Below, piece after piece: positions 2,975 through 8,757 of a stretch of 33,959 nucleotides of DNA. Each line of letters begins with the position of its first letter. Position 1 is the stretch's first letter. Source of the DNA: Candidatus Aenigmatarchaeota archaeon. Lineage in GTDB: Archaea > Aenigmatarchaeota > Aenigmatarchaeia > JACPZZ01. The notes below the pieces were generated by a model. The model ran no database searches and was not told the DNA's origin. It worked only from the letters and a program-made list of their open reading frames with translations. The stretch spans positions 1 to 33,959 of the forward strand of contig JACPZZ010000008.1 in assembly GCA_016195275.1 (NCBI GenBank). The letters are read 5' to 3'. The translations under genes and the position numbers were made by a program.

Positions 2975-3118
2975 TTCAAAACACGTTTGGTTTTTTAATA
3001 ATTAATTTTGTCGGTTTTTATAATCGCTTACTCTCCGCTTAGTTACCGTTATTCGTTAAATCATATTGAAATAACATCAGCAGAAACTCAAAACCGACTT
3101 ACCTATGTATGTTATATT

Positions 3119-3130
3119 GTATTTAAATAC
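3119..3130. promoter_or_regulatory. Palindromic TATA-like site GTATTTAAATAC
   Basis: A perfect 12-bp palindrome containing TTTAAATA on both strands. It lies just outside the left 25-nt island repeat. No ORF starts at the right distance on either strand, so its use is unclear. It could drive a short RNA across the repeat, or be chance in AT-rich DNA. Confidence 0.3.
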
Positions 3131-3136
3131 GTATTG

Positions 3137-3161
3137 GTGAAAAGGGCTTTTTGCAACTAAA
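3137..3161 (+). repeat. Left copy of 25-nt direct repeat bounding the accessory island
   Basis: Matches 6365-6389 at 24 of 25 positions (G versus C at the eighth base). The shared core includes GGCTTTTTGCAACTAAA. Both copies are in the same orientation. This copy also overlaps a 6-bp inverted repeat, GCAACT (3153-3158) with AGTTGC (3169-3174). A direct-repeat pair of this length can mark an integration or recombination event. Confidence 0.65.
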
Positions 3162-3230
3162 GGCTGAAAGTTGCGCTTAAAATCGGTACATAGAAAAATC
3201 TGTCCAAAATCCAACCGAAGTAATGAAAAT

Positions 3231-3913: not shown

Positions 3914-4792
3914 TTAATTGGATTCTTCAAGTTCTATACTGTATTTTTTTAATATATCAAATATCTCTGGTTCAAGTTTTTTTAATTCTGCTCTGAGTTG
4001 TTCCTCGGTTTTATCTCCTGACAATTTGATGAACAATTTCAGCATACCTGCCAATTCCGCGTAATACAAACTATCTGCAATCTCTATAGTTTCCTGCAAA
4101 AGTTTATTGATATCGCCTGAGTTATCTGGGGGGAACAAGTAACCCATTATTCTTACCATCTTGTACATTTTTTGATATATCCCCAATTCCGTAACTTTTT
4201 CTGGCTTAGAGAATGTTGTACTTCCTGTCATTTCTTTCCCTTTGATGTCTTCTGATATCATTACGATTTTTGTCGAAGATAAAATATCCTTGAAAAATGG
4301 ATAGTCTTTATTAAAGATCCCAGCGATTCTTCCAGCCCTACCTTTTTCAATTTTTTGTACATTAACTAAATAATCCGTAACGGGCTTCCTTTTTTTTGGC
4401 AAACCGTCCTTGAATCTCTGATATAGTTTTGCCAAAACAGGGATTCCCAGAATTCTTTGCAGCATTAGCCTTTTCTTTTCTTCCTCTATTTGAGAATTCA
4501 AAATTTTTTTCCCTTCATCCAGTATGGCGATTTCTGAAAAACTGTGCCTATCCATAAGACCGTAAAGTTTCAAGGCTTCGGTGGTAAGTCCATACTTACC
4601 GCCCCTCGGGGCTTTTGCACCGATAATTCTAGCAAATTCCGAATAAGGCAATATGTCTGCCCCGTACTTTTTCCTAACATCCTCTATGATTTTTACCGCC
4701 GCTAATATGCTTATTCTCGGAAATTTTAGTTTTTCCTTGTTTCTCATGCAAAGAATACAGTATTTCTGGAAATAAAAGCTTAACATACCCAT
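3914..4792 (-). CDS. Hypothetical winged-helix-like protein (DUF5343-like N terminus)
   Basis: 292 aa. After a dispensable 15-residue leader the protein has FPRISILAAVKIIEDV, then an 'ARIIGAKAPRGGKYGLTTEA' helix-turn-helix-like stretch and a LYGLMDR...LDEGKKIL wing. This resembles the start of DUF5343-type archaeal proteins as I remember them, without a search. The rest is helical and charged, ending in a 40-residue Glu/Lys-rich helix. The promoter is probably the TTTAAATA near 4843-4852, shared back to back with the RNA candidate on the plus strand. ATG codons at residues 3 and 16 are alternative starts. First gene of a minus-strand pair. Confidence 0.65.
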   Translation of the reverse strand: MGMLSFYFQKYCILCMRNKEKLKFPRISILAAVKIIEDVRKKYGADILPYSEFARIIGAKAPRGGKYGLTTEALKLYGLMDRHSFSEIAILDEGKKILNSQIEEEKKRLMLQRILGIPVLAKLYQRFKDGLPKKRKPVTDYLVNVQKIEKGRAGRIAGIFNKDYPFFKDILSSTKIVMISEDIKGKEMTGSTTFSKPEKVTELGIYQKMYKMVRIMGYLFPPDNSGDINKLLQETIEIADSLYYAELAGMLKLFIKLSGDKTEEQLRAELKKLEPEIFDILKKYSIELEESN

Positions 4793-4875
4793 AAAATTGA
4801 GGTGTCAATTTGAAGTTAGCACTCCAAAATCCTACCTAATGCTTATTTAAACCCTCAAAAACAATAAGAATTATC

Positions 4876-4977
4876 ATTCCAGCTATGATGAGATCGGGAA
4901 AACCCCCTCGTTTCCGCTTTGCTTTAACGAGGAGCGTGTAAGGTGGTCAGCCCGACCTGAGCTGGGGGAAGGTCTTT
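4876..4977 (+). ncRNA. Candidate kink-turn (box C/D-like) RNA with pseudoknot
   Basis: A GC-rich stretch in AT-rich flanks. CCAGC (4879-4883) pairs with GCTGG (4961-4965). Just inside lie ATGATGA (4885-4891), a perfect box C, and CTGA (4957-4960), a perfect box D, the layout of a kink-turn. Further in, TCGGG (4894-4898) pairs with CCCGA (4951-4955). A 7-bp hairpin CCTCGTT (4906-4912)/AACGAGG (4926-4932) has a loop whose CGCT (4915-4918) can pair with AGCG (4933-4936), giving an H-type pseudoknot. An AT-rich TTATTTAA box sits about 30 nt before the 5' end, and CTTTT ends the element. The C-to-D spacing (65 nt) is longer than in ordinary guide sRNAs. It could be a variant C/D sRNA, a cis-regulatory RNA for the following transposase, or an unknown class. 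Confidence 0.5.
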
Positions 4978-5036
4978 TAAACTTCCCTTACTTTACAAAT
5001 GTAGTTAGTTTTCAATACTTTTAATGGTATGCTTTT

Positions 5037-6080
5037 TTGAAGGGGCGTATTGTGCAAGACGCTCACGCGGTAAAGTATTATCTTAAAGAGACCATACAGA
5101 CTGAACAAGGTACGATAACCAAGGAGACGAAAATAACCTATGCACAAGATTGGAAAAATTACAACAAGGCTCAATGCAATGAAATTAAACTGTTTGATGA
5201 GTTGTTGAAAGATTTAGTCCAAAATATCCCAGAGCCTTCTTATATTTTTGGTCGTCCTCGTTTGAGTTTAAGGGAAACCGTATTCTGCACCGTGCAGAAG
5301 GTCTATTCTCAACTTTCAAGCAGGCGGGTACATTCGCTTTATAGAAATTCGGTAGAAAAGGACATGATACGCAAGGCGCCACATTTCAACGCTGTTAGCA
5401 AATTGTTGAATAAGACGGAACTAACTCCAATATTGCACGAATTGATAGCAATTACAGCTAAGCCTCTAAGCTCAATTGAAAACGATTTTGGCGTGGATTC
5501 TTCGGGCTTCCGCACTCGTAGCTTTGGTCAATACGTTGAATACAGGTTCAACTTGAAAAGACAGCATAAATGGCTGAAACCACATTTAGCCGTTGGTTTG
5601 AAAACGAACATAGTTACTGCGGTCATAATAGGGGACGAGAATAGCGGGGATAGCCCGCAATTCAAACCGTTGCTGGAAGCTACGGCAAGGAACTTTTCGA
5701 TCAAAACTGCCGTAGCCGACAAGGCTTATTTGAGCAAGGCAAATTACCAGCTTGTGAGCGATCTGGGCGGGTAAGCCTTTATTCCATTCCGGTCAGATTC
5801 ACGGGCAAACGCAAGAGGCTCTTACCTTTGGACTAAAATGTTCCATTATTTCATGTATAACAGGGAAGAGTTCATGCGACATTACAGCAAACGCTCAAAC
5901 TGCGAAAGCGTTTTCAGTTCGATAAAAAAGAAGTTAGGCGATACGTTAAAAAGCAAGAACAGGATTGCACAGGAAAACGAGTTGCTGGCTAAGATTTTGG
6001 CTTACAATATAACGGTGTTAATACAGGAGATGGACGAGCTGAAAATAAATCAAAGTTTTAAATCTGCAAATTCGAAATAA
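5037..6080 (+). pseudogene. DDE transposase interrupted by one in-frame TAA
   Basis: One continuous reading frame of 347 codons, broken only by an ochre codon at 5772-5774. Translation on either side is contiguous in sense: ...YQLVSDLGG, stop, AFIPFRSDSRANARGSYLW. The catalytic triad is readable: FGVDSSGF (first Asp), AVADKAYLS (second Asp) and RSNCESVFSSIK (Glu), as in IS4/IS5-superfamily DDE transposases. The start is TTG at 5037 or GTG at 5052; no ATG is in frame. No clear terminal inverted repeats were found next to the gene, so the element ends are unresolved. A single substitution (for example AAA to TAA) explains the break; readthrough or sequencing error are alternatives. Confidence 0.85.
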
Positions 6081-6500: not shown

Positions 6501-6884
6501 ATGGACAAGGTTGTTCATTTTGAAATACCGGTGGATGACATCAAAAGGGCGGAGAAATTTTACAATTCTACTTTTGGACGGGGCACGAATAGTGTCCCTG
6601 GAATGGGTTATACCTTGGTCACCACAGTGGAAACGGATGAAAAAATGATGCCAAAGGAACCCGGCGCGATTAACGGCGGGATGATGAAGCGCACCGACAA
6701 GATAAAGTCGCCTGTCGTTACAATCGGCGTCAGTGATGTTGACGAGGCTTTGGAAAATGTAAAGAATAACGGTGGCAGCATACTCATGGAAAAAACGAAA
6801 ATCGGCGATATGGGTTATTCTGCTTATTTTAAAGACACAGAAGGAAATATTGTAGGCCTTTGGCAAAATTTGAAGGAGGAATAA
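6501..6884 (+). CDS. VOC (glyoxalase/bleomycin-resistance) family protein
   Basis: 127 aa from the leaderless ATG. Begins MDKVVHFEIPVDDIKRAEKF, the usual first beta-alpha unit, with HFEIP and, near the end, YFKDTEGNIVGLWQN carrying the Glu/Asp of the last metal-site strand. Two beta-alpha-beta-beta-beta halves are visible, with the second starting at VVTIGVSDVDEALENVKNNG. The substrate cannot be told from sequence; members include glyoxalases, extradiol dioxygenases and drug-binding proteins. It is followed with almost no gap by a DUF1761 membrane protein and an AHSA1-like protein, a grouping I would expect in small-molecule stress operons, though that is inference. Confidence 0.85.
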   Translation: MDKVVHFEIPVDDIKRAEKFYNSTFGRGTNSVPGMGYTLVTTVETDEKMMPKEPGAINGGMMKRTDKIKSPVVTIGVSDVDEALENVKNNGGSILMEKTKIGDMGYSAYFKDTEGNIVGLWQNLKEE

Positions 6885-6885
6885 A

Positions 6886-7305
6886 GTGCCGCCACCGATC
6901 AACCTGCTCGTGGTTTTCGGTTCTGCTGTAGTCAGCGTTTTGATAGGGATGGCATGGTATTCGCCGGGCATGTTCGGCAAATTCTGGACATTCTATTCCG
7001 GCATGACCTCAAAGAAGATCAATCCAATGAAAAAAAGCGGGAACGTAACAAGGGCTTATATCTTAAGTTTTGCAGGCTCCCTGGTAACGGCTTACATACT
7101 GGCATATTTCCTGTATTATACCGGATCGACCACTGCTTTTGAAGGTGCAAAGAAAGGTGCAATGATGTGGGCTGGTTTTGTCCTGACTGCTATGGCTGCG
7201 GGCGTTCTGTACGAGGGCAGGCCAAAAGAACTGCTTGTCATCAACAACGGATACCAGCTTGTTTCCCTGATGGCAATGGGCGCAATACTTGCGGTGTGGG
7301 CATAG
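6886..7305 (+). CDS. DUF1761 family membrane protein
   Basis: 139 aa, GTG start with a strong GGAGG site 7 nt upstream overlapping the end of the VOC gene. Four hydrophobic segments (about residues 5-22, 57-80, 92-108 and 122-138) suggest an integral membrane protein. The MAWYSPGMFGKFW motif after the first helix is typical of DUF1761. Function of the family is unknown. Middle gene of a three-gene operon. Confidence 0.85.
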   Translation: MPPPINLLVVFGSAVVSVLIGMAWYSPGMFGKFWTFYSGMTSKKINPMKKSGNVTRAYILSFAGSLVTAYILAYFLYYTGSTTAFEGAKKGAMMWAGFVLTAMAAGVLYEGRPKELLVINNGYQLVSLMAMGAILAVWA

Positions 7306-7306
7306 C

Positions 7307-7624
7307 ATGAAAATAATAAAACAGACTATTTTATTCAGGGCCTCGCCGCACGACTTGTACGAGGCCTTGATGGACTCAAAAAAACATTCAGCTTTCACAG
7401 GCTCGAAATCGAAAATAAGCAGGAAAGCCGGCGGGTTGTTTTTCGCGTATGACCGCGGTTTGCACGGCAAGAATCTGGAATTGAAAATTTCTTTTAACAG
7501 GGTTAAACACGGGACAAAACTGTATTTTATCCAGACAGATGTGCCGGACAAATGCGCCAAAAGCATTGCGCAGGGCTGGCACGACTTTTACTGGACTCCG
7601 ATAAAAAGAATGATCGAAGCTTAG
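7307..7624 (+). CDS. AHSA1/SRPBCC-like protein lacking part of the central sheet
   Basis: 105 aa from ATG 7307, three bases past the previous stop. N-terminal IKQTILFRASPHDLYEALMD, GGLFFAYDRGLHGKNLEL and the C-terminal GTKLYFIQTDVPD...GWHDFYWTPIKRMIE are the hallmarks of the AHSA1 (Aha1 C-terminal) START-like fold. Family members usually run about 130-145 aa. Here LEL runs straight into KISFNRVKHGTKL, so roughly 25 residues (the strand with the usual KIVQ.WR and W...YS positions) are absent without a frameshift. The fold may be compromised or unusual. It ends overlapping the converging zinc-ribbon gene. Confidence 0.75.
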   Translation: MKIIKQTILFRASPHDLYEALMDSKKHSAFTGSKSKISRKAGGLFFAYDRGLHGKNLELKISFNRVKHGTKLYFIQTDVPDKCAKSIAQGWHDFYWTPIKRMIEA

Positions 7625-7806
7625 GCTCCGCTCCACTTAAAGAAGCTTTTTCTCTTTTTCTGGAGATCCGGCTCCTTGAACTTGTAGCCGCACTTCACGC
7701 ATTTGTCTGCGACCGGTTCGAGTGTGCCGTCCCAAGCTGTTGTCATAATCAGATCTGCGCCGCATTTTGGGCATAACTTCTCTTTTTTTGGAGTGTCGTC
7801 GTTCAT
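7621..7806 (-). CDS. Small zinc-ribbon protein
   Basis: 61 aa with CPKCG (C12/C15) and CVKCG (C36/C39) knuckles separated by about 20 residues, then a basic tail KKRKSFFKWSGA. Typical free-standing archaeal zinc ribbon of unknown role, possibly nucleic-acid or protein binding. It converges on the AHSA1-like gene with a 4-base overlap and is divergent from the secreted protein at 7876. Confidence 0.7.
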   Translation of the reverse strand: MNDDTPKKEKLCPKCGADLIMTTAWDGTLEPVADKCVKCGYKFKEPDLQKKRKSFFKWSGA

Positions 7807-7845
7807 CCTTTCCCTTGTTTAGATTTGTGGGCGCACCGTAATAAG

Positions 7846-7852
7846 TTTTAAT
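7846..7852 (+). promoter_or_regulatory. TATA box TTTTAAT for the secreted-protein gene
   Basis: Centred 27 nt before ATG 7876, so the transcript is probably leaderless. This favours 7876 over the upstream in-frame start at 7855. Confidence 0.55.
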
Positions 7853-7875
7853 CTGTGCGTCTTCAGAATTTTATA

Positions 7876-8757
7876 ATGGCCGATTCATTCCGCCGCGCAA
7901 TAACAGGCTTGTTATTCATCCTGCTTCTTTCCGCGGATGCGTCCGCGGCGTCGGTTGTTTCAGACTATTGCAAAAAGAACAGCTGCGTAGAAACCGCTGT
8001 TGACGTGATTGCGTCCGCTTTCAAGGGTGTGGAAATCTACCTGTCCCCAAATGAAATTAACGCGTACAACTGCAGGAAATCGGATTTTTTGAATCTTACT
8101 GTTGTTTCGCCGCTGTTATCGACAGACTCGGAAGTATACGTGAACGGCGGATCGGTGTGCAGGATAAAAGGCTCGCTGTTGCCGAAAACGGACATGTGCG
8201 TTTTTTCCCTTGACGGCGCAGCCGGGGACAGCAGCGGCTACGAAAACCTGATAGTTAACGTGGCTGTAAAATCGAACGCAGGGCTTTTATCCCAACCCAA
8301 GGAATTGTCTAAGAATTTCGGCATAAAAATGAACCGCCTCGCATCGGACGAGGAGAAGGCCGTGATAGCAGCGTCCAAATCTGCCGCAGTTTCGATTGCC
8401 GCCGCTTACGCAAAAACAAAATCATACGAGGACTCGGGATATAACATGACTTCTGCTATAGCCCTGTTAAACAAATCGGAAAACGGAATGTTACACGGCG
8501 ACGAAAGCCTCGAGGACTGCATGTTCAAAGACGCGGCTGCGAGCTACAAGAACGCGAAGCGGACCGCGGATGCCGCGGTTAAGGACGCCGCGTACGCGAA
8601 AGACGAGCAGGACGGCGAGAAGTTTTCGACGATAACAGGCAAATTTTTTGCAACAGCCTCCAATCCTGTTATTGCCGCTATGGCTGTTTTGATCGCATTG
8701 TTCGGCTACAAACTATACAAAGAGAAAAACAGGAAAAATGTAAAGATGGATTTGTAA
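7876..8757 (+). CDS. Secreted, C-terminally anchored hypothetical protein
   Basis: 293 aa. A signal peptide is plain: basic FRR, hydrophobic ITGLLFILLLSADASAAS, with probable cleavage after ASA. The outer region has four well spaced cysteines early in the mature protein and an Ala/Lys/Asp-rich helical stretch (about 165-245) that could form a coiled coil. It closes with a single transmembrane helix (AAMAVLIALFGYKLY) and a short basic cytoplasmic tail. Topology: outside N terminus, one membrane anchor. No family recognised. It may be a cell-surface or envelope protein. Codon use matches its neighbours. Confidence 0.75.
   Translation: MADSFRRAITGLLFILLLSADASAASVVSDYCKKNSCVETAVDVIASAFKGVEIYLSPNEINAYNCRKSDFLNLTVVSPLLSTDSEVYVNGGSVCRIKGSLLPKTDMCVFSLDGAAGDSSGYENLIVNVAVKSNAGLLSQPKELSKNFGIKMNRLASDEEKAVIAASKSAAVSIAAAYAKTKSYEDSGYNMTSAIALLNKSENGMLHGDESLEDCMFKDAAASYKNAKRTADAAVKDAAYAKDEQDGEKFSTITGKFFATASNPVIAAMAVLIALFGYKLYKEKNRKNVKMDL

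Follow-up and report, generated by a model that had tools for sequence, protein, structure and literature searches.

A candidate single-copy box C/D kink-turn RNA on a variable island of a draft archaeal genome

The plus strand between positions 4877 and 4967 of the window (the whole stretch of 33,959 nt that was analysed, which is contig C12 of an archaeal draft genome of 1.07 Mb in 34 contigs) matches a box C/D kink-turn, an RNA fold bound by the protein L7Ae, at every position. We put at roughly one half the probability that this stretch encodes a kink-turn RNA restricted to its lineage, present in one copy on an accessory island and stabilised by L7Ae; its transcription, its binding by L7Ae and any function are inferred. 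The plus-strand transcript, a small RNA of ~100 nt, would run from roughly 4873 to 4978, with its ends brought together by the box C/D kink-turn. Binding by the host L7Ae would most likely stabilise this kink-turn and let the RNA build up as an RNP, in which the inner stem and the apical region may offer single-stranded segments to some target, or nothing functional.

This reading is favoured by an exact consensus, two well-predicted stems and the rarity of the motif (one in the window versus none in 12 Mb of simulated sequence), by a TATA-like box 26 nt upstream, a tRNA-like GC content and the L7Ae and fibrillarin genes of the host, and also by the precedent of L7Ae-bound non-guide RNAs in Pyrococcus abyssi (PMC3124441). 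Weighing against it are the failure to find a homologue, a plus strand that folds at the level of shuffled sequences while the opposite strand folds better, a TATA-like box that may belong to a divergent ORF, and a weak T-run.

Geometry and rarity of the kink-turn

The features of the candidate and its surroundings are compiled in Table 1. The outer stem comprises five Watson-Crick pairs, 4879-4883/4961-4965, and is extended by two U-G pairs to 4877/4967. The non-canonical core of the kink-turn consists of tandem G·A pairs (G4887·A4960 and A4888·G4959), a U·U pair (T4889·T4958) and the pair G4890-C4957. The perfect C and D boxes, the 5-bp outer stem and the second, inner stem had been described in a first-pass annotation of this DNA, and all of them are present where it had placed them. 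The same annotation had proposed a 7-bp apical hairpin (4906-4912/4926-4932) whose arms are indeed complementary, yet the hairpin accounts for 7% of the nested ensemble, where another apical hairpin is preferred, and the structure containing it lies 8.7 kcal/mol above the minimum free energy (-23.0 versus -31.7 kcal/mol). The proposed pseudoknot (4915-4918/4933-4936) comes down to one 4-bp match only, so that of a kink-turn RNA candidate with a pseudoknot it is the kink-turn that is supported, by geometry, rarity, promoter position, GC content and the L7Ae and fibrillarin genes. An 18-codon plus-strand frame, MMRSGKPPRFRFALTRSV, also lies within the kink-turn stretch (window 4885-4941) and is probably due to chance.

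Table 1. Coordinates of the kink-turn candidate, its neighbours and copies of the 31-nt hairpin
Feature	Position	Strand	Remarks
TATA-like box TTATTTAAA	4843..4851	+	26 nt before outer stem; read from sequence
Outer (C) stem, 5' arm TTCCAGC	4877..4883	+	pairs with 4961-4967, probability 0.63-0.99
Kink-turn 3-nt bulge TAT	4884-4886	+	T4884-A4885-T4886
Box C ATGATGA	4885..4891	+	exact RTGATGA consensus
Inner stem, 5' arm TCGGG	4894..4898	+	pairs with 4951-4955, probability 0.80-0.82
Apical part	4902..4947	+	short stem 4902-4904/4945-4947 (0.76-0.80) and apical hairpin of uncertain fold
Inner stem, 3' arm CCCGA	4951..4955	+	pair-probability calculation
Box D CTGA	4957..4960	+	exact consensus
Outer (C) stem, 3' arm GCTGGGG	4961..4967	+	pair-probability calculation
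T-run TCTTTT	4973..4978	+	weak, four Ts after C; possible 3' end
Divergent ORF, 292 aa	3914..4792	-	no family; two weak relatives in class
DDE transposase (DDE_Tnp_1)	5037..6080	+	Pfam PF01609 on both pieces; frame broken by stop near 5772 (translation)
GAARCNNNNNCATACNNNNAGNNNNNGYTTC copies in G000	L030 1459-1489, L031 1460-1490, L037 444-474, L044 1459-1489
GAARCNNNNNCATACNNNNAGNNNNNGYTTC copies in G004	L132, L133, L135, L143, L145

Both strands of the window were scanned for a kink-turn with RTGATGA and CTGA boxes, at least five Watson-Crick outer pairs and an interior of 20-100 nt. The candidate is the only occurrence and none was found in 12 Mb simulated with a first-order Markov model that keeps the dinucleotide make-up of the window, counts that are to be read knowing that the motif was picked post hoc in the first-pass annotation, while the consensus itself is fixed and published and was not fitted. 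The folding energy of the plus strand is no better than that of shuffles (z -0.02) and that of the minus strand is better (z -2.4), which is weak evidence either way because the energy model gives kink-turns no credit. The patch is GC-rich, as annotated, with 56% GC against 30% and 25% in the flanks, and the mean of the tRNAs of the genome is likewise 56%. Genes for L7Ae and fibrillarin are present in the host genome and in all four congeners searched, and genes nearby encode an FttA of archaeal type and a subunit of the proteasome.

Comparison with guide RNAs

The candidate shares box C, box D, the terminal stem and the kink-turn geometry with archaeal box C/D guide sRNAs, which in addition carry a C'/D' pair and two guides of 10-12 nt (PMC7994747), whereas the candidate has a 65-nt, self-paired interior between box C and box D. 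No C' box was found between the boxes, the best candidates having two mismatches (ACGAGGA at 4927 and GTGGTCA at 4943), nor a D' box, the only match with one mismatch being CCGA at 4952, which adjoins box D. Complementarity of the would-be guides to the 16S and 23S rRNAs of the genome and to its 20 tRNAs, an incomplete set, is at the level of shuffled sequences. The missing C'/D' boxes, the guide length and the shuffle-level complementarity to these rRNAs and tRNAs speak against a standard C/D guide, and on these grounds we keep the candidate apart from the C/D guide sRNAs; the earlier remark that its spacing is unlike that of standard guides was well founded.

A degenerate or orphan C/D sRNA, derived from a methylation guide or still acting as one, with the C'/D' half lost or remodelled, is the strongest of the alternatives to a non-guide kink-turn RNA, and we consider it unlikely. 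The perfect boxes, the terminal stem, the fibrillarin gene and the best Rfam matches speak for it. A covariance-model check against Rfam, suggested with the first-pass annotation, gave no match at the gathering level, and at E values up to 10 it returned C/D sRNAs only, all below threshold, the best being sR44 (17.1 bits against a gathering cutoff of 45, E 0.077) and sR4. The length of the interior, the poor internal boxes and the shuffle-level complementarity stand against this origin, as does the inner stem, in which the two would-be guides base-pair with one another.

Neither strand matched a tRNA or a split tRNA. The ACA or ANANNA box of archaeal H/ACA sRNAs is missing immediately downstream of the hairpin (the nearest ACA, 4995-4997, is 28 nt past the outer stem), and neither a lower stem nor a pseudouridylation pocket was seen on reading the sequence around 4855-4995 by eye. 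A pattern search for canonical C/D sRNAs (C/D'/D) elsewhere in the genus gave 0-4 matches per genome, which indicates that C/D sRNAs with perfect boxes are few in the genus.

Promoter, island and distribution

The usual archaeal spacing between TATA box and start would place the start of the transcript near 4873, just before the outer stem, in keeping with the promoter-like start noted earlier. Several tRNA genes of the same genome have similar AT-rich boxes upstream. The box is nevertheless non-exclusive evidence, because read on the other strand, as TTTAAATAA, it would suit the minus-strand ORF 3914-4792 just as well. As for the T-run end that had been proposed for the transcript, the T-run itself is present, but it is weak and a terminator scan found no terminator-like site at the candidate.

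The ambiguity of the TATA-like box bears on a second alternative, which we regard as quite unlikely: that the relevant structure is a minus-strand leader element in the 5' UTR of ORF 3914-4792, or a DNA hairpin at the edge of the island, and that the plus-strand kink-turn is coincidental. TTTAAATAA is a good TATA-like box for this ORF and the minus strand does fold better than shuffles. However, if TTTAAATAA starts the ORF mRNA, the start would fall at ~4820, downstream of the hairpin, which would then lie outside the leader; moreover, the ORF is an orphan and the plus-strand motif is too exact for chance.

The homologue search across archaea that the first-pass annotation had proposed came back empty. 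The candidate is single-copy in its own genome, and BLAST in 94 relatives gave only short AT-rich chance matches. A covariance model built from the single sequence found no homologue in 391 other genomes, its 13 weak matches (E 0.01-0.9) being expected by chance over so many genomes; on inspection these were partial, and two of them share TGATGAGATCnGGAAAAC, which is also readable as codons for MRSGKT-like residues. A DNA pattern for the closed kink-turn had no matches in the genome_contigs collection and 27 in viral_contigs, about the chance number as estimated, none of which fitted the covariance model, and BLAST against phage and plasmid collections gave none. Since no homologue turned up in the collections searched, there are no sequences to compare for covariation in the stems of the candidate, and this single sequence is best taken as a reasonable lead, short of a proven new RNA.

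In the congener G004, the syntenic region contains homologues of the flanking window positions 3003-3184 and 6884-8670 with different genes between them, and an inverted fragment of the same transposase, 91% identical and without its 5' end (L077 2303-2881). A model search of this syntenic stretch with filters off gave nothing above 9.7 bits. As the G004 locus differs and lacks the RNA, we regard the locus as a variable island, which would make the RNA, if real, accessory. A non-functional sequence, arisen by chance or decayed in such a turnover-prone island, would agree with the variable locus, the failure of the homologue searches, the shuffle-like folding energy and the large post hoc freedom in the choice of motif. 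We nonetheless judge it very unlikely, given that the motif is exact and rare, the GC content is tRNA-like and the TATA-like box is well placed.

The first-pass annotation had also suggested a possible link of the RNA to the island or the transposase; a link to the transposase finds no support in the only near-identical copy of the gene found, the G004 fragment, which has no such RNA beside it. The least probable of the alternatives is that the kink-turn acts in cis, as part of the transposase mRNA leader, and lets L7Ae repress translation of the transposase: the candidate does lie on the strand of the transposase frame, 60-70 nt upstream of it, and L7Ae represses mRNAs via leader kink-turns in Sulfolobus (PMC5539422), but the frame is interrupted and the RNA is absent beside the G004 fragment, albeit one lacking the 5' end. 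An imperfect terminal inverted repeat (4987-5003/6215-6231, 82%) was considered as the transposon ends and is treated as chance. A link to a defence system was likewise rejected, with no PADLOC match among ten neighbouring proteins.

With respect to known systems, the favoured kink-turn RNA can be compared with the non-guide RNAs sRkB, sRkC and sRk52 of P. abyssi, which are bound by L7Ae (PMC3124441), and with the transposase-linked L7Ae-binding RNAs of Sulfolobus solfataricus, as these are cited within the same paper (PMC3124441). All are archaeal non-guide RNAs that are rich in GC, contain a kink-turn (or kink-loop) and come from the vicinity of a transposase gene. Compared by features, RNAs of the sRkB/sRkC type occur in repeated copies that are related to the 3' ends of IS607/IS605 OrfB genes (PMC3124441), whereas the candidate is single-copy and lies upstream of a DDE transposase (DDE_Tnp_1), so that the multi-copy OrfB association is missing. 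The archaeal mRNA leaders with kink-turns bound by L7Ae, those of l7ae and nop5-fibrillarin (PMC5539422), share with the candidate a kink-turn that precedes a reading frame in a host possessing L7Ae; the candidate differs in that a broken transposase gene follows it and in that its kink-turn sits where the ends of a compact, closed structure meet.

A box C/D kink-turn is almost invariably taken to mark a methylation guide. If the candidate does enclose a structured, non-guide core within a closed C/D kink-turn, it would join a small set of archaeal RNAs in which L7Ae serves another purpose, in a lineage of small archaeal genomes about whose RNA biology little is known, although a single sequence without relatives cannot alone bear such a claim. 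The further claim that the candidate represents a narrowly distributed new class of archaeal kink-turn RNA, borne on an accessory island and built from a folded non-guide core that a C/D-type kink-turn closes with the help of L7Ae, is tentative and in our estimate rather doubtful.

A hairpin upstream of many tRNA genes of the genus

While viewing tRNA promoters, we noticed a 31-nt hairpin, GAARCNNNNNCATACNNNNAGNNNNNGYTTC, that seems a stronger signal and more remarkable than the kink-turn candidate. A pattern search returned 48 copies across five congeneric genomes, against one in backward controls (for copies in two of the genomes see Table 1). Across 30 distinct copies, 98.3% of the cells of the stem pair, and changes on both sides occur in five of the ten pairs, with 40 such cells compared to 11.8 in shuffles; the pairing is destroyed when the partner strand is slid. 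No Rfam family covers the hairpin at the gathering level. Many copies end 9-11 nt upstream of the mature tRNA 5' end, and the hairpin looks like a tRNA 5'-leader element, that is, a processing or promoter signal.

One copy in G004 is found in the same 501-base stretch (L131) as a partial match to archaeal RNase P RNA at 274-501, which is below threshold (35.6 of 84 bits) and cut at the 3' end of the stretch. Many tRNA genes of the genome carry introns, and only 20 tRNAs were found. Both rRNA genes appear to carry large insertions or introns as well, because the 16S and 23S matches span 3.3 and 5.8 kb, respectively (L064, that is G000:C2:760-4093, and L049 1182-7027). A related hairpin with an ATAC loop (L044 762-797) is located inside an intron-containing tRNA gene (tRNA match 717-880).
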